A stretch of DNA of 64,000 nt. Source: an uncultured Bacteroidota bacterium. Lineage in GTDB: Bacteria > Bacteroidota > Bacteroidia > B-17B0 > Aurantibacillaceae. A program made the position numbers and the translations under genes. How positions within the stretch are numbered: position 1 is the first letter of the stretch; each line of letters starts with the position of its first letter. The notes beneath the pieces were generated by a model. The model saw nothing but the letters and a program-made list of their open reading frames with translations. It searched no databases and was not told the origin of the DNA. This document shows positions 14,326-64,000 of this stretch, in pieces. The stretch is taken from positions 1 through 64,000 of the forward strand of contig CALMVZ010000008.1 of NCBI GenBank assembly GCA_937873155.1, in the 5' to 3' direction.

Positions 14326-16648
14326 TCCCTATCAGCAACACATCATCCACCTGGTCTAAGTTCCCCTTCCAGTCAGTGAAAGTCGTTTCTAAAACCATTC
14401 TTTGTGCGTTTAGATTCAAACCTGAGTTTTGTTTCAGTGTTTCGCACAGACGACGATATTTGAATTTTTTACCATCAGTTCCTCCGAATTGATCTACATA
14501 ACCATCGGTACCTAAATACAGAATATCGCCTTTTTTGTAATTTACAGAATGTAATGCGAATGAATTCATCCGCTCGCCTTGTCCAACCGGCATTTTATCA
14601 TAAGGTAATTCTGATAATTCTCCGTTACTGATAATGATCGGACTTGTATTTGCGGCAGAGTAGGTGATCTTATCTCCGTCGAAACAAACTAATACGCCAT
14701 CGAAACCATCTTTCTGTTCCTCGCGGGAGATACTTTCTATTAAACGCTTTCTTACGTAATTTAAAACTTCGTGCGGTTCAAGAATTCTTTTTTCGTTGAT
14801 AGCCTCATTCAAAAAAGAGATATTCAGCAAACTCATAAATGCTCCCGGGACCCCATGTCCTGTGCTATCACACACAGCTAAATAAAATAGTTCGGAGTTT
14901 TTAGTTCGTAGTTCGGAGATGGCAGATTCTTTCGCTTTTTCACTCCGAACTCCGAACTCTGAACTACGAACTGAAGTTGCCCAATAAAAATCACCGCTCA
15001 CAATATCTTTTGGTTTGAATAAAATGAAATTATCTTTTAAATGTTTATTCAGGAAATCAGTATGCGCTAATAATGTATATTGAATACGTTTAGCATAATT
15101 GATGGAGTCGAGGATCTCTTTTTGTTTTTCTTCAATGATGTGTTTTTGCTGCGTGATCTCTTTATTAGCTTGCTGTTTATTTTTGAATGCCCTGAAAGAA
15201 ATAAATGCGATCACTAACATCAGTAAAAATCCAAATACACCGCCATAAGTGAATAAACGCTGCTTTGCTATCTCTGCATCATGTTTACTTTGTTCTACTA
15301 AACGGATATTAGCTTGCGAAACACTGTCAGCCGCCGCTTTTTTATCGTACTCGGATTTAAATTGTTGACGAAGGATAGCCTTTTTATTTTCAACGCGCGA
15401 AAGACTATCACGCATTTTTACATGAAGCTCAAACATTTCAAGAGCATCATTGGTCCGGTTGTTACTCCTATAGATCTTGTACAAAGTATATGCAGGATGT
15501 TTAATGAGGTAAGGATAACCTAATTCATTTCCTAATTGTAAGGCTTTTTTTGCATTTTCTTCAGCCTTCGCTAAATTTTTACTGGCTAAATAAATGTCAG
15601 CTACTAATTCGTAAGCTTCAGATAATGAACTTTTGCTTTGAATAGAACTTAAAAGGTCGACCGCCCGGTTCGCATTGAACAAAGCGCTGTCGTGAGATCC
15701 CTTCAAAGAGTAAGCTGAAGAAATAAATATATGGGCTGCAGCCATTCCGCCTTTATCATCAATATTCTCTCTTAACTTTTTAGAATCGTAATAATAAACA
15801 AGGGCTTTATCAGGATCACCTTTCTTAAAATAGATCTGCCCGATATTAGTCAATGAAAGAGCGCAGGATTGTTTTTCGCCTACGATCTCAAATAAGATCT
15901 TGGCTTTATTAAAATTTTGTAAAGCTTTCTCATAATCGCCTTCGCTTTCGTAAATATGTCCAAGGTTATTTAACGTTGCCGCCTGATGACGTTTCTCTCC
16001 CCTTGTTTCAAATATTTTCAGCGCTTTTGAAAAGCAATTTACAGCTGCGGCAAGATCTCCCTGGTTCCTGTAAATGGAACCTAAATTCAGATAAGTGATC
16101 CCGACGCCTGTCTTATCATTGTTCTTTTCTTTTACGTTCAGGGATTTGATATGATATTCTATCGACTTATTAGCATCACCTTGCTTCTTATAAATATCTG
16201 CAAGATTGTTGAGGGAAGCAGATATGCCTGTAAGATCGTTTAATTTCGTTTGTACTTTCAAAGCCTCTTCGTAGTATTTAAGCGCTCCGCTCAGATCTCC
16301 TTTCAGGTTGGCCATTTCAAAACCAATATTACTAAGAGCGTAAGACTTATACATTAAGAATACATTTTCATTTCCGCCTTTTTCAGCGAGTTTAAGTCCA
16401 AGAACATTGTAACGTGTCCAAAGATGTTCATCCCCTAACGAATTCGCTAAATTCATAACGCATCTCACTCTTATTGAGTCATGATTTGCCCTGTGATACA
16501 TTGGTAAAATTGAGTCGAGAATATACTTATCCTGGATGGAAAATTCTTTTGGATCAAGACTATCAAGCAAATACCATTCCTTCCCTTTTTTCTGAGCAGA
16601 AATGAAGGTGCTTAAAAGAACGAGGAATATAAAAATGCTCTTTTTCAA
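14315..16648 (-). CDS. TPR-containing SpoIIE-family serine phosphatase
   Basis: About 777 residues from the TTG at 16648, which gives the signal-like MKKSIFIFLVLLSTFISA; the frame reaches another TTG at 16678. Layout: periplasmic TPRs (about 60-400), a coiled coil, one membrane helix (GVFGFLLMLVIAFISF), a second coiled coil (QQANKEITQQKHIIEEKQ), then a cytoplasmic PP2C/SpoIIE domain (KPKDIVSGDFYWA, VCDSTGHGVPGAFMS, LYLGTDGYVDQFGG). It should dephosphorylate a STAS protein, possibly the nearby one, in response to an external signal. Between FYWA and FYLAVCD, 28 codons (14889-14972) are formed by a heptamer-palindrome element that the family does not normally have. Confidence 0.93.
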   Translation of the reverse strand: MKKSIFIFLVLLSTFISAQKKGKEWYLLDSLDPKEFSIQDKYILDSILPMYHRANHDSIRVRCVMNLANSLGDEHLWTRYNVLGLKLAEKGGNENVFLMYKSYALSNIGFEMANLKGDLSGALKYYEEALKVQTKLNDLTGISASLNNLADIYKKQGDANKSIEYHIKSLNVKEKNNDKTGVGITYLNLGSIYRNQGDLAAAVNCFSKALKIFETRGEKRHQAATLNNLGHIYESEGDYEKALQNFNKAKILFEIVGEKQSCALSLTNIGQIYFKKGDPDKALVYYYDSKKLRENIDDKGGMAAAHIFISSAYSLKGSHDSALFNANRAVDLLSSIQSKSSLSEAYELVADIYLASKNLAKAEENAKKALQLGNELGYPYLIKHPAYTLYKIYRSNNRTNDALEMFELHVKMRDSLSRVENKKAILRQQFKSEYDKKAAADSVSQANIRLVEQSKHDAEIAKQRLFTYGGVFGFLLMLVIAFISFRAFKNKQQANKEITQQKHIIEEKQKEILDSINYAKRIQYTLLAHTDFLNKHLKDNFILFKPKDIVSGDFYWATSVRSSEFGVRSEKAKESAISELRTKNSELFYLAVCDSTGHGVPGAFMSLLNISFLNEAINEKRILEPHEVLNYVRKRLIESISREEQKDGFDGVLVCFDGDKITYSAANTSPIIISNGELSELPYDKMPVGQGERMNSFALHSVNYKKGDILYLGTDGYVDQFGGTDGKKFKYRRLCETLKQNSGLNLNAQRMVLETTFTDWKGNLDQVDDVLLIGIKL
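14889..14972. repeat. Heptamer palindrome, copy A (in frame in the SpoIIE phosphatase gene)
   Basis: The left arm (14889-14918) is AG followed by TTCGGAG, TTTTTAG, TTCGTAG, TTCGGAG. The right arm (14943-14972) is its inverted counterpart: on the other strand AG then TTCGTAG, TTCAGAG, TTCGGAG, TTCGGAG. The arms match at 25 of 30 positions around a 24-base centre. Total 84 bases, exactly 28 codons. It is translated as SVRSSEFGVRSE ... SELRTKNSEL. Confidence 0.9.
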
Positions 16649-18271: not shown

Positions 18272-19348
18272 TTATAGGCTATATCTTGCCTCAGGAACCG
18301 CAGATAATTCGCAAAAGTCTTGTTTCAGGAATTTGTAGTAACCTGTAATGGCGATCATGGCGGCGTTATCTGTACAGAACTCGAAAGAAGGAATGAAAAC
18401 ATCCCATTTTTGTTTAATTCCGGTCTCTTTCAGTTGTTTTCTTAATTCGCTGTTAGCAGAAACTCCTCCTGCAATAGCAATGTGTTTTATGTTATGGATT
18501 TTAGAGGCTTCAATAACATTCTGTAAAAGAATATTTATTAAATGATGCTGATACGAAGCGCAAATGTCATTCAGATTCTTTTCAATGAATTTCGGATCTT
18601 CCTTCGTTCCGTTCTGAATAAAATAAAGAAATGCAGTCTTTATACCACTGAAACTATAATCAAGTCCCGGCACTTTTGACTTAGGGAATTGGAATTTTTT
18701 AGGATCACCCGATTGCGCATGTTTATCAATTAAAGGTCCGCCCGGATAAGGCAAGCCCAAAATTTTAGCAGCTTTATCAAAGGCTTCCCCCACAGCGTCA
18801 TCTTGTGTTTGTCCGATCAATTCAAAACTCAAATGATCGTTTACTTTTACGATTTGGGTGTGTCCGCCGCTAACAGTTAAACACAGGAATGGAAAATTGG
18901 GAGTTCGGATTTCGGAGTTCGTTGACCGTGTGCCTGATTTTTCCTCAGCCAACTCCGAACTCCGAACTCCGAACTGAATAAAATGCGCGAGGATGTGCGC
19001 ATGCATATGGTTCACTTCTATAAGCGGAATACTTAATGCAAGAGCTAAAGATTTGGCAAAACTGGTTCCTACCAGTAAGCTTCCCATTAAACCTGGCCCA
19101 CGTGTAAAAGCTATAGCTGAAATTTGTGATAAATTAACACCCGCTTTTTCCAATGCAGCATGTGCGGTTGGAACAATGTTTTTCTGATGGTCTCTGCTTG
19201 CTAATTCAGGAATTACCCCTCCGTATTGCTCATGAATGGTTTGATTCGCTGTAATATTTGCAAGCAGAACCTCATTCTCAAGAATAGCACATGAAGTATC
19301 GTCGCAGCTCGATTCTATTGCGAGGATGTAAACTTTTTCACTCTTCAT
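18272..19348 (-). CDS. tsaD: tRNA N6-threonylcarbamoyladenosine transferase TsaD
   Basis: 358 residues. An ASKHA-fold protein starting ILAIESSCDDTSCA, with metal ligands in NHMHAHILAH (about 112-121), SGGHTQI and the C-terminal CTDNAAMIA. TsaD transfers threonylcarbamoyl to A37 of ANN-decoding tRNAs and is nearly always essential. Between HILAHFI and FPFLCLTVSGGH, about 26 extra residues (about 125-150) are encoded by a heptamer palindrome; most homologs have a much shorter loop there. It is transcribed divergently from tamB. Confidence 0.96.
   Translation of the reverse strand: MKSEKVYILAIESSCDDTSCAILENEVLLANITANQTIHEQYGGVIPELASRDHQKNIVPTAHAALEKAGVNLSQISAIAFTRGPGLMGSLLVGTSFAKSLALALSIPLIEVNHMHAHILAHFIQFGVRSSELAEEKSGTRSTNSEIRTPNFPFLCLTVSGGHTQIVKVNDHLSFELIGQTQDDAVGEAFDKAAKILGLPYPGGPLIDKHAQSGDPKKFQFPKSKVPGLDYSFSGIKTAFLYFIQNGTKEDPKFIEKNLNDICASYQHHLINILLQNVIEASKIHNIKHIAIAGGVSANSELRKQLKETGIKQKWDVFIPSFEFCTDNAAMIAITGYYKFLKQDFCELSAVPEARYSL
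18897..18975. repeat. Heptamer palindrome, copy B (in frame in tsaD)
   Basis: The left arm is TTGGGAG, TTCGGAT, TTCGGAG, TTCG (18897-18921). The right arm (18949-18975), on the other strand, reads AG then three TTCGGAG units and TTGG. The 27-base centre is unrelated to that of copy A. It is translated as FGVRSSELAEEK ... NSEIRTPN, the same reading register as copy A. Confidence 0.88.
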
Positions 19349-44126: not shown

Positions 44127-45203
44127 TTACGGTCTCATAACTTTGAAAGCTACTGAATTTACAGCAGTTTTACTTACACCGTTCACGAAAAAGTGTTTCA
44201 GCATGGCTTGGGCTTCCGGTAATTCGAATACTTCTTTTAGATTTCTTAATTTACCAATGGGAATTTCATTCTTTAAACATTGATCGTAAAGATCATTGAA
44301 ATTCATTTTTTCAACTTCAATATTTATTAATTCAAATAATTCTTCACGGTTCTTCACCCGGTTTTGGTTAGAACTGAATTTTTCATCAATGAGTAATTCT
44401 TTCAGGTCCAATAATTCACACAACGCTTTAAATTGTTTATCGCTGCCGATAGCAAATGTTACGGTGTGATAATCTTTGGTAGAGAATAATTCCCCATAAG
44501 GAGCAATATTGGGATGTAAAGAACCGATCGCTTCAGGAAGATGTCCGCCAATTAACCAATTCGTCGCTTGATTTACTAATGAAGCAACAGCACTATCAAA
44601 TAATGAGACAGAAACATGACAACCTTTTTTAGATCTTTCCCGTTCCAACAAAGCAATCAGTATCGCTTCTTTTAATTGGTGTCCAGCTAAAAGATCGATT
44701 AAAGCTACCGGCATTTTCACTGGTTTTGAATCCGGTTCACCGTTGATCAACATAAAACCTGCTTCAGCTTGTAAGATCAGATCGTAAGCGGTACGGGTGC
44801 TTTCATTTCCGAAACCATTTATAGAAGCGTAGATGAGTTGGGAGTTGAGAGTTCGGAGTTCGGAGTACGAGACTTTGAGTTTTAAATCATCACCTTTTTT
44901 GAAATTAGTAATGAGAATATCTGCTTCTTTTATTAGCGTATAGAATTTCTGAAGATCGTTTTCCTGAGTGATATCTAAAAACAAAATTTCTTTTCCTGTG
45001 TTCACACTCCAGTAATAAGCACTTTCTTTATCTGAAGCATTTTCTTTCTCGCATTTCCAGCTGCGAGTAACATCTCCGCCGGTTTTTGGATTTTCAATTT
45101 TAATGACCTTTGCACCTAATTCAGAAAAAAATACTCCAACTGATGGTCCGGCTAAAACACCTGCCAATTCAATTACTTTTAAGTCGGAGAAAAATTGTTT
45201 CAT
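44127..45203 (-). CDS. CaiB/BaiF family CoA transferase
   Basis: 358 residues, slightly shorter than usual. It begins LKVIELAGVLAGPSVGVFFSEL, followed by GAKVIKIENP, and has YASINGFG and a catalytic Asp in AYDLILQAEAGFM. Members move CoA between carboxylic acids. Residues about 112-122 (YSELRTLNSQL), just before IYASINGFG, are encoded by a heptamer array (44836-44865) where relatives have unrelated residues of the same length. Substrate unknown; no CoA-linked genes adjoin. Confidence 0.92.
   Translation of the reverse strand: MKQFFSDLKVIELAGVLAGPSVGVFFSELGAKVIKIENPKTGGDVTRSWKCEKENASDKESAYYWSVNTGKEILFLDITQENDLQKFYTLIKEADILITNFKKGDDLKLKVSYSELRTLNSQLIYASINGFGNESTRTAYDLILQAEAGFMLINGEPDSKPVKMPVALIDLLAGHQLKEAILIALLERERSKKGCHVSVSLFDSAVASLVNQATNWLIGGHLPEAIGSLHPNIAPYGELFSTKDYHTVTFAIGSDKQFKALCELLDLKELLIDEKFSSNQNRVKNREELFELINIEVEKMNFNDLYDQCLKNEIPIGKLRNLKEVFELPEAQAMLKHFFVNGVSKTAVNSVAFKVMRP
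44836..44865. repeat. Heptamer array, copy C (single arm inside the CoA-transferase gene)
   Basis: AG followed by TTGGGAG, TTGAGAG, TTCGGAG, TTCGGAG: one complete four-heptamer arm with no inverted partner nearby. On the coding strand it reads SELRTLNSQL, in the same register as the second arms of copies A and B (SELRT-x-NS, SEIRTPN). Confidence 0.8.
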
Positions 45204-45229: not shown

Positions 45230-45302
45230 TATTAATTCTTCGACCCCAAAGGGGTCGAAGGTTTATAAAAATGGCTTATTTCTATAAATCTAGGACTCCT
45301 TC
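45230..45302. repeat. Paired palindromic (BIME-like) intergenic element
   Basis: Two hairpins: TTCGACCCCAAAGGGGTCGAA at 45238-45258, and GGACTCCTTCGGAGTCC at 45293-45309 or within a base or two. Between them are two inverted AT motifs (GTTTATAAA and TCTATAAAT). The element fills the spacer between the aldo/keto reductase and CoA-transferase genes and resembles the hairpin pairs of REP/BIME elements. Confidence 0.65.
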
Positions 45303-45312
45303 GGAGTCCAAC

Positions 45313-46299
45313 TTAGTACTGAGCGAGCACCGGTTTATTATTTAGGATCTTTTCGATCTTCGTCATCACTTCTTCAGTCAGCAAAGGAACAACATCCAAA
45401 GAAGTGATCGTTTCTTTCAACTGTTCAACCTTACTTGCTCCTAAAATAGTTGTACTTACGTTTGGATTTTTTACTGTCCAGGCAATTGCAAGTTTTGGCA
45501 GTGTAGTGCCTAATTCTTTTGCCAACACATCCAGCTTCTTTGTTTTTTCGATGCGTGATTGATCGCCTAAAGTTCTTTCTTTCAGCCAATCCATTCCTTC
45601 AATATGTAAACGGGTATCTTTCGGATCTCCGTTATTATATTTTCCGGTCAATAAACCACTTCCTAACGGACTCCAAATAGTGGTTCCTAAACCATGATCC
45701 CTGAATAATAATAAATAATCTTTTTCCAACTTAGTTCTTTCGAACATATTGTATTGAGGCTGCTCCATGGTCGGGCCAATTAATTTATAATCTTTCGCCA
45801 CAGTAATTGCGGCCATGATCTCATCATTTGCCCATTCGCTGGTTCCCCAATATAAAATTTTACCTTGCTGAATTAGAGTATTCATGGCAAGAACAGTTTC
45901 TTCAATTGGCGTATTCTTATCCGGACGGTGAGCAAAGAACAGATCGATATATTCAACCTGTAAACGTTTTAAAGCGGCATGACAGCCTTCGATAACGTGT
46001 TTGCGCGATAAACCGGTTTGGTTCGGTAATTTATCTTCATAGCCAAAAAAAACTTTACTGGAAACACAATACGTACTCCGTGCCCAGCTTTTCTTTTTCA
46101 GTAGATTGCCCATTACAATTTCTGATTGTCCGGATGCGTAAACTTCTGCGTTATCAAAAAAGTTAACGCCTTCATCATACGCAAGGCTCATTAAACCATC
46201 TGCAACTTTATCATCAATTTGTTTTCCGAAAGTGAGCCACGATCCGAATGAAAGCGTGCTAACCTGTAATCCTGATTTTCCTAATCTTCTGTATTCCAT
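45313..46299 (-). CDS. Aldo/keto reductase (potassium-channel beta-subunit-like)
   Basis: 328 residues. The catalytic tetrad is Asp49 and Tyr54 (FFDNAEVYASGQSE), Lys82 (SSKVFF) and His124 (FFAHRPD). The NADPH-binding end has TTILGASKVEQLKE. Sequence features (SEWANDEI, QPQYNMFERTKLEKDY) place it with the Kv-beta/YghZ group, which reduces aldehydes with NADPH. Physiological substrate unknown. pckA is upstream on the same strand but separated by a terminator. Confidence 0.94.
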   Translation of the reverse strand: MEYRRLGKSGLQVSTLSFGSWLTFGKQIDDKVADGLMSLAYDEGVNFFDNAEVYASGQSEIVMGNLLKKKSWARSTYCVSSKVFFGYEDKLPNQTGLSRKHVIEGCHAALKRLQVEYIDLFFAHRPDKNTPIEETVLAMNTLIQQGKILYWGTSEWANDEIMAAITVAKDYKLIGPTMEQPQYNMFERTKLEKDYLLLFRDHGLGTTIWSPLGSGLLTGKYNNGDPKDTRLHIEGMDWLKERTLGDQSRIEKTKKLDVLAKELGTTLPKLAIAWTVKNPNVSTTILGASKVEQLKETITSLDVVPLLTEEVMTKIEKILNNKPVLAQY

Positions 46300-53139: not shown

Positions 53140-53233
53140 AGTTCGTAGTTTTTAGTTCGTAGTTCGTAGATATTTTGGCTCGTTGTTGCTGTAAATTTAA
53201 ATTCTACGAACTACCAACTACGAACTCCCAACT
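53140..53233. repeat. Heptamer palindrome, copy D (intergenic)
   Basis: Left arm (53140-53169): AG, TTCGTAG, TTTTTAG, TTCGTAG, TTCGTAG. Right arm (53204-53233), on the other strand: AG, TTGGGAG, TTCGTAG, TTGGTAG, TTCGTAG. The centre is 34 bases of AT-rich DNA unrelated to the other copies. It occupies almost the entire spacer between the rhodanese stop and the DedA start. The total of 94 bases is not a multiple of three, and most heptamers carry TAG, unlike the coding copies. Confidence 0.92.
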
Positions 53234-63719: not shown

Positions 63720-64000
63720 ATCCCGCAGGGATTCAATATCGGTAAAACGATGTATTCATACTCTGCTTTCTATCCCGTAGGCATTGAACAGTGGAATCCC
63801 TACGGGATTCTGGATTTTTTTTGAGTAGGTATTACCGATATTGAATCCCTAAGGGATTCTGGCTGCTTTTTTGTTCGTATTTACAGATATTTAATGCCTA
63901 AGAGATTCTTGTACACCAACGCAGTTATTTAATGCCAACATTGAATCCCTATGGGATTCTTGACCCGCATTTTGATAGTATTACCGATATTGAATCCCTA
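63720..64000. repeat. Array of GAATCCC..GGGATTC palindromic repeats
   Basis: Seven or so copies of a unit with core GAATCCCTACGGGATTC, preceded by TTACCGATATT when complete. Copies are at 63720-63744 and 63771-63790 (minus orientation), and at 63791-63813, 63831-63862, 63880-63911 (degenerate), 63924-63962 and 63980-64000 (cut by the window edge; plus orientation). Unit spacing is roughly 40-60 bases. No open frame occurs. Confidence 0.85.

Follow-up and report, generated by a model that had tools for sequence, protein, structure and literature searches.

The window, a stretch of 64,000 nt of Bacteroidota DNA, holds on its minus strand a CoA-transferase family III (CaiB/BaiF) gene at 44127-45203, an ORF whose product matches Pfam CoA_transf_3 (E 2e-81). 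Inside this gene, at 44836-44865 on the plus strand, lie four heptamers that each begin with AGTT and continue with the triplets GGG, GAG, CGG, and CGG, followed by a final AG. Together they form a complete 30-nt arm of a dispersed module, (AGTTNNN)x4+AG. Translated from the minus strand, this patch is in frame and encodes residues 114-123, SELRTLNSQL, directly before IYASINGFG; the family pattern YxxLxxxNPxLIYASISGFG is present in most orthologs. The original prediction, made from the letters alone, described four heptamers encoding this peptide and called their codons odd. The heptamers are real, with 75 overlapping matches to AGTTNNNAGTTNNNAGTTNNNAG in the genome versus 1 with a reversed control, and the codons are rare or absent in the rest of the gene, where CGA serves none of 8 Arg residues, CTC 3 of 41 Leu, and TCC 1 of 23 Ser. 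Other palindromic repeats, CGACCCCAAAGGGGTCG and GGACTCCTTCGGAGTCC, lie beside the gene (45240-45320), and the window ends in a 49-nt tandem array (63794-64000) with the palindromic repeat GAATCCCTAAGGGATTC.

The dispersed module

A catalogue of 38 elements from the same genome yielded 51 well-preserved arms of a single shape, (AGTTNNN)x4 plus AG, 30 nt long and usually with T before and A after. CGT, CGG, and GGT dominate slots 1, 3, and 4, slot 2 varies and most often holds GAG, and the slots of the patch follow these preferences. Arms are sharply bounded and slot specific, so they appear to be copied as units rather than slipped. A slippage microsatellite was rejected because unit number is nearly constant at four, slots keep their identity, and slots within an arm show no homogeneity.

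Arms stand singly or in inverted pairs with AGTT facing outward. Paired arms fold well, and their slots do not covary: paired slots match no better, and if anything worse, than slots of re-paired arms (the probability of so low a match is 0.02 in G000, the genome of the window, and 0.05 overall), which led us to reject a conserved hairpin with compensating changes, even with the fixed AGTT and AACT still allowing folding. In G000, the deficit relative to random re-pairing hints weakly at an avoidance of perfect palindromes. As a single arm, the patch at 44836 folds no better than its shuffles (z -0.86).

Outside ORFs, 23 of 28 elements (82%) have an outer edge no more than 10 nt from a stop codon, against 9% expected from random intergenic 80-nt segments, a figure that depends on mechanical ORF calls, in which arrays may supply stops themselves, and that needs proper annotation. 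Often the stop is a TAG made of T and the arm's first AG, and many of these elements fill the entire stop-to-start gap, so they also abut a start codon. One inverted pair, with its left arm at 53140-53169 (plus strand) and its right arm at 53204-53233 (minus strand), fills the gap between two genes, and the neighboring gene's stop codon lies 4 nt outside the right arm. Similar 30-nt arms are found in the related genome G002, several of them at stops. A three-frame stop cassette was discarded since TAG stops are not conserved, the slot-final base being G in 80% of cases in G004 and always A in G051.

In an orthologous intergenic pair from G000 and G003, 58 of 60 arm bases are identical, the loop is unalignable, and the flanks are 75 to 79% identical. 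This suggests that arms are kept at the DNA level, presumably by some force that holds them unchanged. The AGTT skeleton is family-wide and the triplets are lineage specific, with CGT/CGG in G000, CGG/GGG in G004, and, in AGTT arrays of other genera of the family, ATG (G050), GAA (G051), and CTT (G058). In a sample of 395 genomes from the phylum, G000 alone has the CG-rich version in quantity. Such lineage-specific triplets look like concerted change, as ongoing copying between arrays would produce.

The CoA-transferase site among relatives

The codon alignment of the CoA-transferase genes comprised seven genus members and 80 further loci, four of the latter from the same genomes, for a total of 87 rows. 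Only three of the seven genus members, G000, G004, and G005, have the full array. Of its 20 fixed bases, G002 has 18 and G001 has 16, while every other gene has 14 or fewer, and in about 185,000 windows on both strands of these genes all 20 coincide only at the patch site of carriers. None of the 80 related loci shows a change in length at the site, and neither a longer nor a shorter ortholog was seen.

Patch identity to G000 is 97% in G005 (32 of 33 bases), 52% in G007, and 48% in G003, against a flank identity of 71% in each. Between G000 and G005, which have the same slots, fourfold sites are identical at 6 of 7 positions in the patch versus 30 of 90 in the flanks (P 0.007), where synonymous sites are saturated, and the identical tract ends where the arm ends. 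Within the patch, differences between G004 and G000 are confined to the slots, and G007 has a native-like DYPTLKK. Because equal length is combined with abrupt edges against diverged flanks, in-place replacement rather than simple insertion appears well supported at this site.

A feature of the array itself probably explains why the protein tolerates the patch. In this orientation its peptide is a heptad, N-S-E-L-R-T-x, placing N at i+4 between L residues at i and i+7, which is the spacing of the native motif LxxxNPxLIY (L-x3-N-P-x-L). Motif-spaced L, N, and L-type residues are found in 68 of 87 rows and both hydrophobic residues in all 87. As this fit is explained by selection on the protein, targeting of the site through DNA homology is unneeded, and the data did not support it: in 78 non-carrier genes, the likeness of the DNA to the AGTT skeleton does not exceed what the encoded protein dictates (observed score less expected score, +0.18; sd, 1.10).

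Part of what had been proposed for this site from the letters alone agrees with the alignment. Relatives do carry unrelated sequence of equal length, the change between sister species is abrupt and limited to the 30 nt of the module, and the mimicry of the native motif is borne out in substance; the suggestion that the insertion site resembled the repeat was not, as far as any likeness beyond that imposed by the protein motif is concerned. Every genome sharing the patch has heptamer elements elsewhere, and the one finding named in advance as a sign of chance, a shared patch in a heptamer-free genome, did not appear. The earlier observation is right and broader than stated.

Copies in other genes and the origin of the patch

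ORFs 100 aa or longer contain about a dozen of the elements. In-frame copies occur in genes for the CoA-transferase, HemL, MqnD, a multihaem/TPR protein, T9SS proteins, and TsaD-like and phosphatase-like proteins. Pfam supports an aminotransferase class III, a menaquinone biosynthesis protein, the multihaem/TPR protein, and a T9SS-signal protein; HemL and MqnD are our readings of the first two, and the TsaD-like and phosphatase-like genes are named from motifs only.

Some of these copies resemble the patch. In the T9SS gene, G000 has an exact 30-nt arm where G001, G003, and G005 have other sequence of equal length (STNSELSTPNS in G000, STNPDINTPNS in G001, and ETNPDISLPKA in G003), and G000 and G003 are 48% identical in the element against 80% in the flanks. 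This would be a second equal-length replacement, and the G001 sequence (12/18) may be a relic. At the HemL site (L166, L218, L222, and L207), G000 and G007 have AACT-type units and G003 and G005 have AACATTC units, the two types differing by 6 nt in length. Here G000 and G003 are 87% identical in the flanks and 45% in the elements, and the G003 element matches that of G005 at 85%, against the gene trees, which suggests an in-place change of array type. A single site in the MqnD-like gene of G005 (L213) combines CG-type AGTT units with AACACCG units at its opposite end.

Other copies appear to have changed the length of their host. An inverted pair in frame in the phosphatase-like gene (VSGDFYW...DSTGHGVPGAFMS), with arms at 14889-14918 (plus) and 14943-14972 (minus), is held by G000, and the empty site in G002 and G003 codes for only 5 residues. 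From these orthologs the copy appears to be an insertion with length change, and no target site duplication was seen by eye at the empty site. The pair in the TsaD-like gene (SGGHTQ motif) has a partly decayed left arm at 18895-18924 (plus) and a right arm at 18946-18975 (minus); in G007 (L200) and G003 (L203), an unrelated repeat reading RHPELAEG (CGTCATCCTGAGCTTGCCGAAGG) sits in the loop that heptamer arms occupy in other species, with a change in length. The multihaem, TsaD-like, and phosphatase-like copies all look like length-changing insertions, and both insertion and in-place replacement seem to occur.

As the best explanation of the patch, which we judge probable by a modest degree, we propose short-tract templated overwriting of codons 114-123 by a genus-wide module, plus selection. 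The module, with its fixed AGTT and variable triplets, would have replaced these codons in place, likely with another array serving as the template for a short copied tract (by ectopic gene conversion or template switching) and not through insertion. Selection would have retained the patch because the L and N spacing of the array heptad matches the native motif, and its DNA would since have stayed nearly unchanged while surrounding synonymous sites became saturated. The match to the dispersed module, the unchanged length, the sharp edges, the fit to the protein, and the recurrence at other genes are all observed; the copying step is what we infer from them, with gene conversion its most natural reading. 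The original prediction of gene conversion or patching stands as far as abrupt replacement and similar copies elsewhere in the genome are concerned, and is less secure as strict gene conversion, since no donor tract sharing homology in its flanks came to light. Counting against overwriting are the length-changing insertions at other genic copies and, in the gene trees, the grouping of G005 with G007 and the partial arrays of G001 and G002 in a separate clade.

These trees bear on whether the genus had one ancestral patch, kept by constraint on its DNA and later replaced in G007 and G003 by transferred native alleles, a history that is compatible with overwriting and that we regard as quite conceivable, if on balance not expected. 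The carriers were monophyletic in a first gene tree, a result we dropped when masking the patch moved G005 to the non-carrier G007 with modest support (83/78), so that carriers need not be one clade; between one and three gains of the patch fit the data. Judged by four other genes, G003 falls close to G000, and G005 to G007. The CoA-transferase gene of G003 (L012) does not follow this placement but groups with G001 and G002, and it shares just 71% identity with its counterpart in G000, where five genes taken together give about 85%, a discordance that suggests gene transfer or replacement. Along with the slots shared by G000 and G005 and the possible relics in G001 and G002, this discordance favors an ancestral patch, against which stands the native-like sequence retained by G007.

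It is unlikely that the arm is instead a functional DNA or RNA site whose AGTT spacing was selected and which arose where it stands through point mutations, without any copying. G002 and G001 do have the look of intermediates (P 0.004 and 0.014, conditional on their proteins), arms are more conserved than flanks at two loci, and the non-genic copies mostly abut stop codons. However, the patch matches genome preferences in its slots as well (GAG in slot 2, CGG in slots 3 and 4), G000 and G005 agree fully in the variable slots, G001 resembles a decayed form of G002, since the N it has lost is the native residue, and non-carriers show no drift toward the skeleton. Less likely still is insertion of a 30-nt arm and then loss of some 30 bases of native sequence: the phosphatase-like gene offers a precedent for insertion, but no ortholog of altered length was seen at the CoA-transferase site, and two equal-length cases are known. 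Chance convergence of coding sequence on the family motif, which alone puts the site in about the top 6% of windows, is highly improbable, and simple chance is ruled out, given all 20 fixed bases with preferred slots (P no higher than about 0.002 once the protein is taken into account) and the number of matches in the genome.

A broader proposal can be offered only tentatively, and we think it more apt to fail than to hold. Templated overwriting may act genome-wide, repeatedly turning short coding or gene-end tracts into period-7 arrays that share the AGTT skeleton and carry each lineage's own triplets, with a new flavor able to replace an old one in place; arms would be kept as DNA, so that a protein or RNA would read four AGTT sites spaced by 7. 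Small dispersed repeats are usually thought to enter genes by insertion, and here a 30-nt repeat appears to replace codons exactly. With filled, relic-like, and native states in sister species, repeat copying into coding DNA becomes directly testable, and stop-codon placement with arm conservation suggests a gene-end function that could be assayed. Found at gene ends and inside other genes of the genus, the module lets one ask in a natural setting how small repeats, whether selfish or functional, come to spread into proteins.

Comparison with known repeat families

TAACTGA heptamers of Beggiatoaceae, Cyanobacteria, and some Bacteroidetes are 2 to 43 copies of one exact unit, and in the genome studied best most of them lie immediately 5' of start codons (PMC4679880); beyond that study, we found nothing in the heptanucleotide-repeat literature bearing on the module. 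Like them, the module is built of 7-base direct repeats around an AACT core and is scattered through the genome, mainly between genes and now and then in ORFs. Unlike them, it has four units in a fixed 30 nt, often in inverted pairs, and its unit is not exact, with four of seven bases fixed and three variable; its copies sit at stop codons, although many abut a start codon too. Microsatellite or slippage arrays also have short tandem units, but here the number is nearly always four and slots keep a position-specific identity. MITEs have terminal inverted repeats with target site duplication; here there are inverted arms in pairs, and inspection by eye of the empty phosphatase-like site showed no duplication.

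REP sequences of the GTAG and CGTC families are 20 to 40 nt long, dispersed, arranged as head-to-head dimers, and found downstream of genes; the repeat's TAG can end an ORF, and some copies are inside genes (PMC3733652). The module shares their short dispersed size, paired arms, gene-downstream placement, ORF-ending TAG, and genic copies, but whereas each REP unit is a stem-loop of its own, a single arm of the module is not a palindrome and folds no better than its shuffles. Nor was the link of GTAG-type REPs to RAYT (Y1_Tnp) transposases found: G051 lacks Y1_Tnp despite 72 array hits, G003 combines 3 Y1_Tnp matches with just 4 array hits, and in G000 none of 4 Y1 genes lies within 2 kb of a listed array. 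REP/RAYT mobilization was rejected on this lack of association.

Rickettsia palindromic elements (RPEs, as cited in PMC3733652) are described as insertions, in frame in many unrelated protein genes, including core genes. The module, compared by description, likewise has in-frame copies in unrelated protein genes. Against empty orthologs, insertion is seen in the phosphatase-like gene and a length change in the TsaD-like gene, and neither in the CoA-transferase or T9SS gene; unlike RPEs, the module has at least two sites of equal-length replacement. Among known kinds, it comes closest to heptamer direct repeats (PMC4679880) and to REP/RPE-like repeats (PMC3733652), from each of which it departs in a tested feature.
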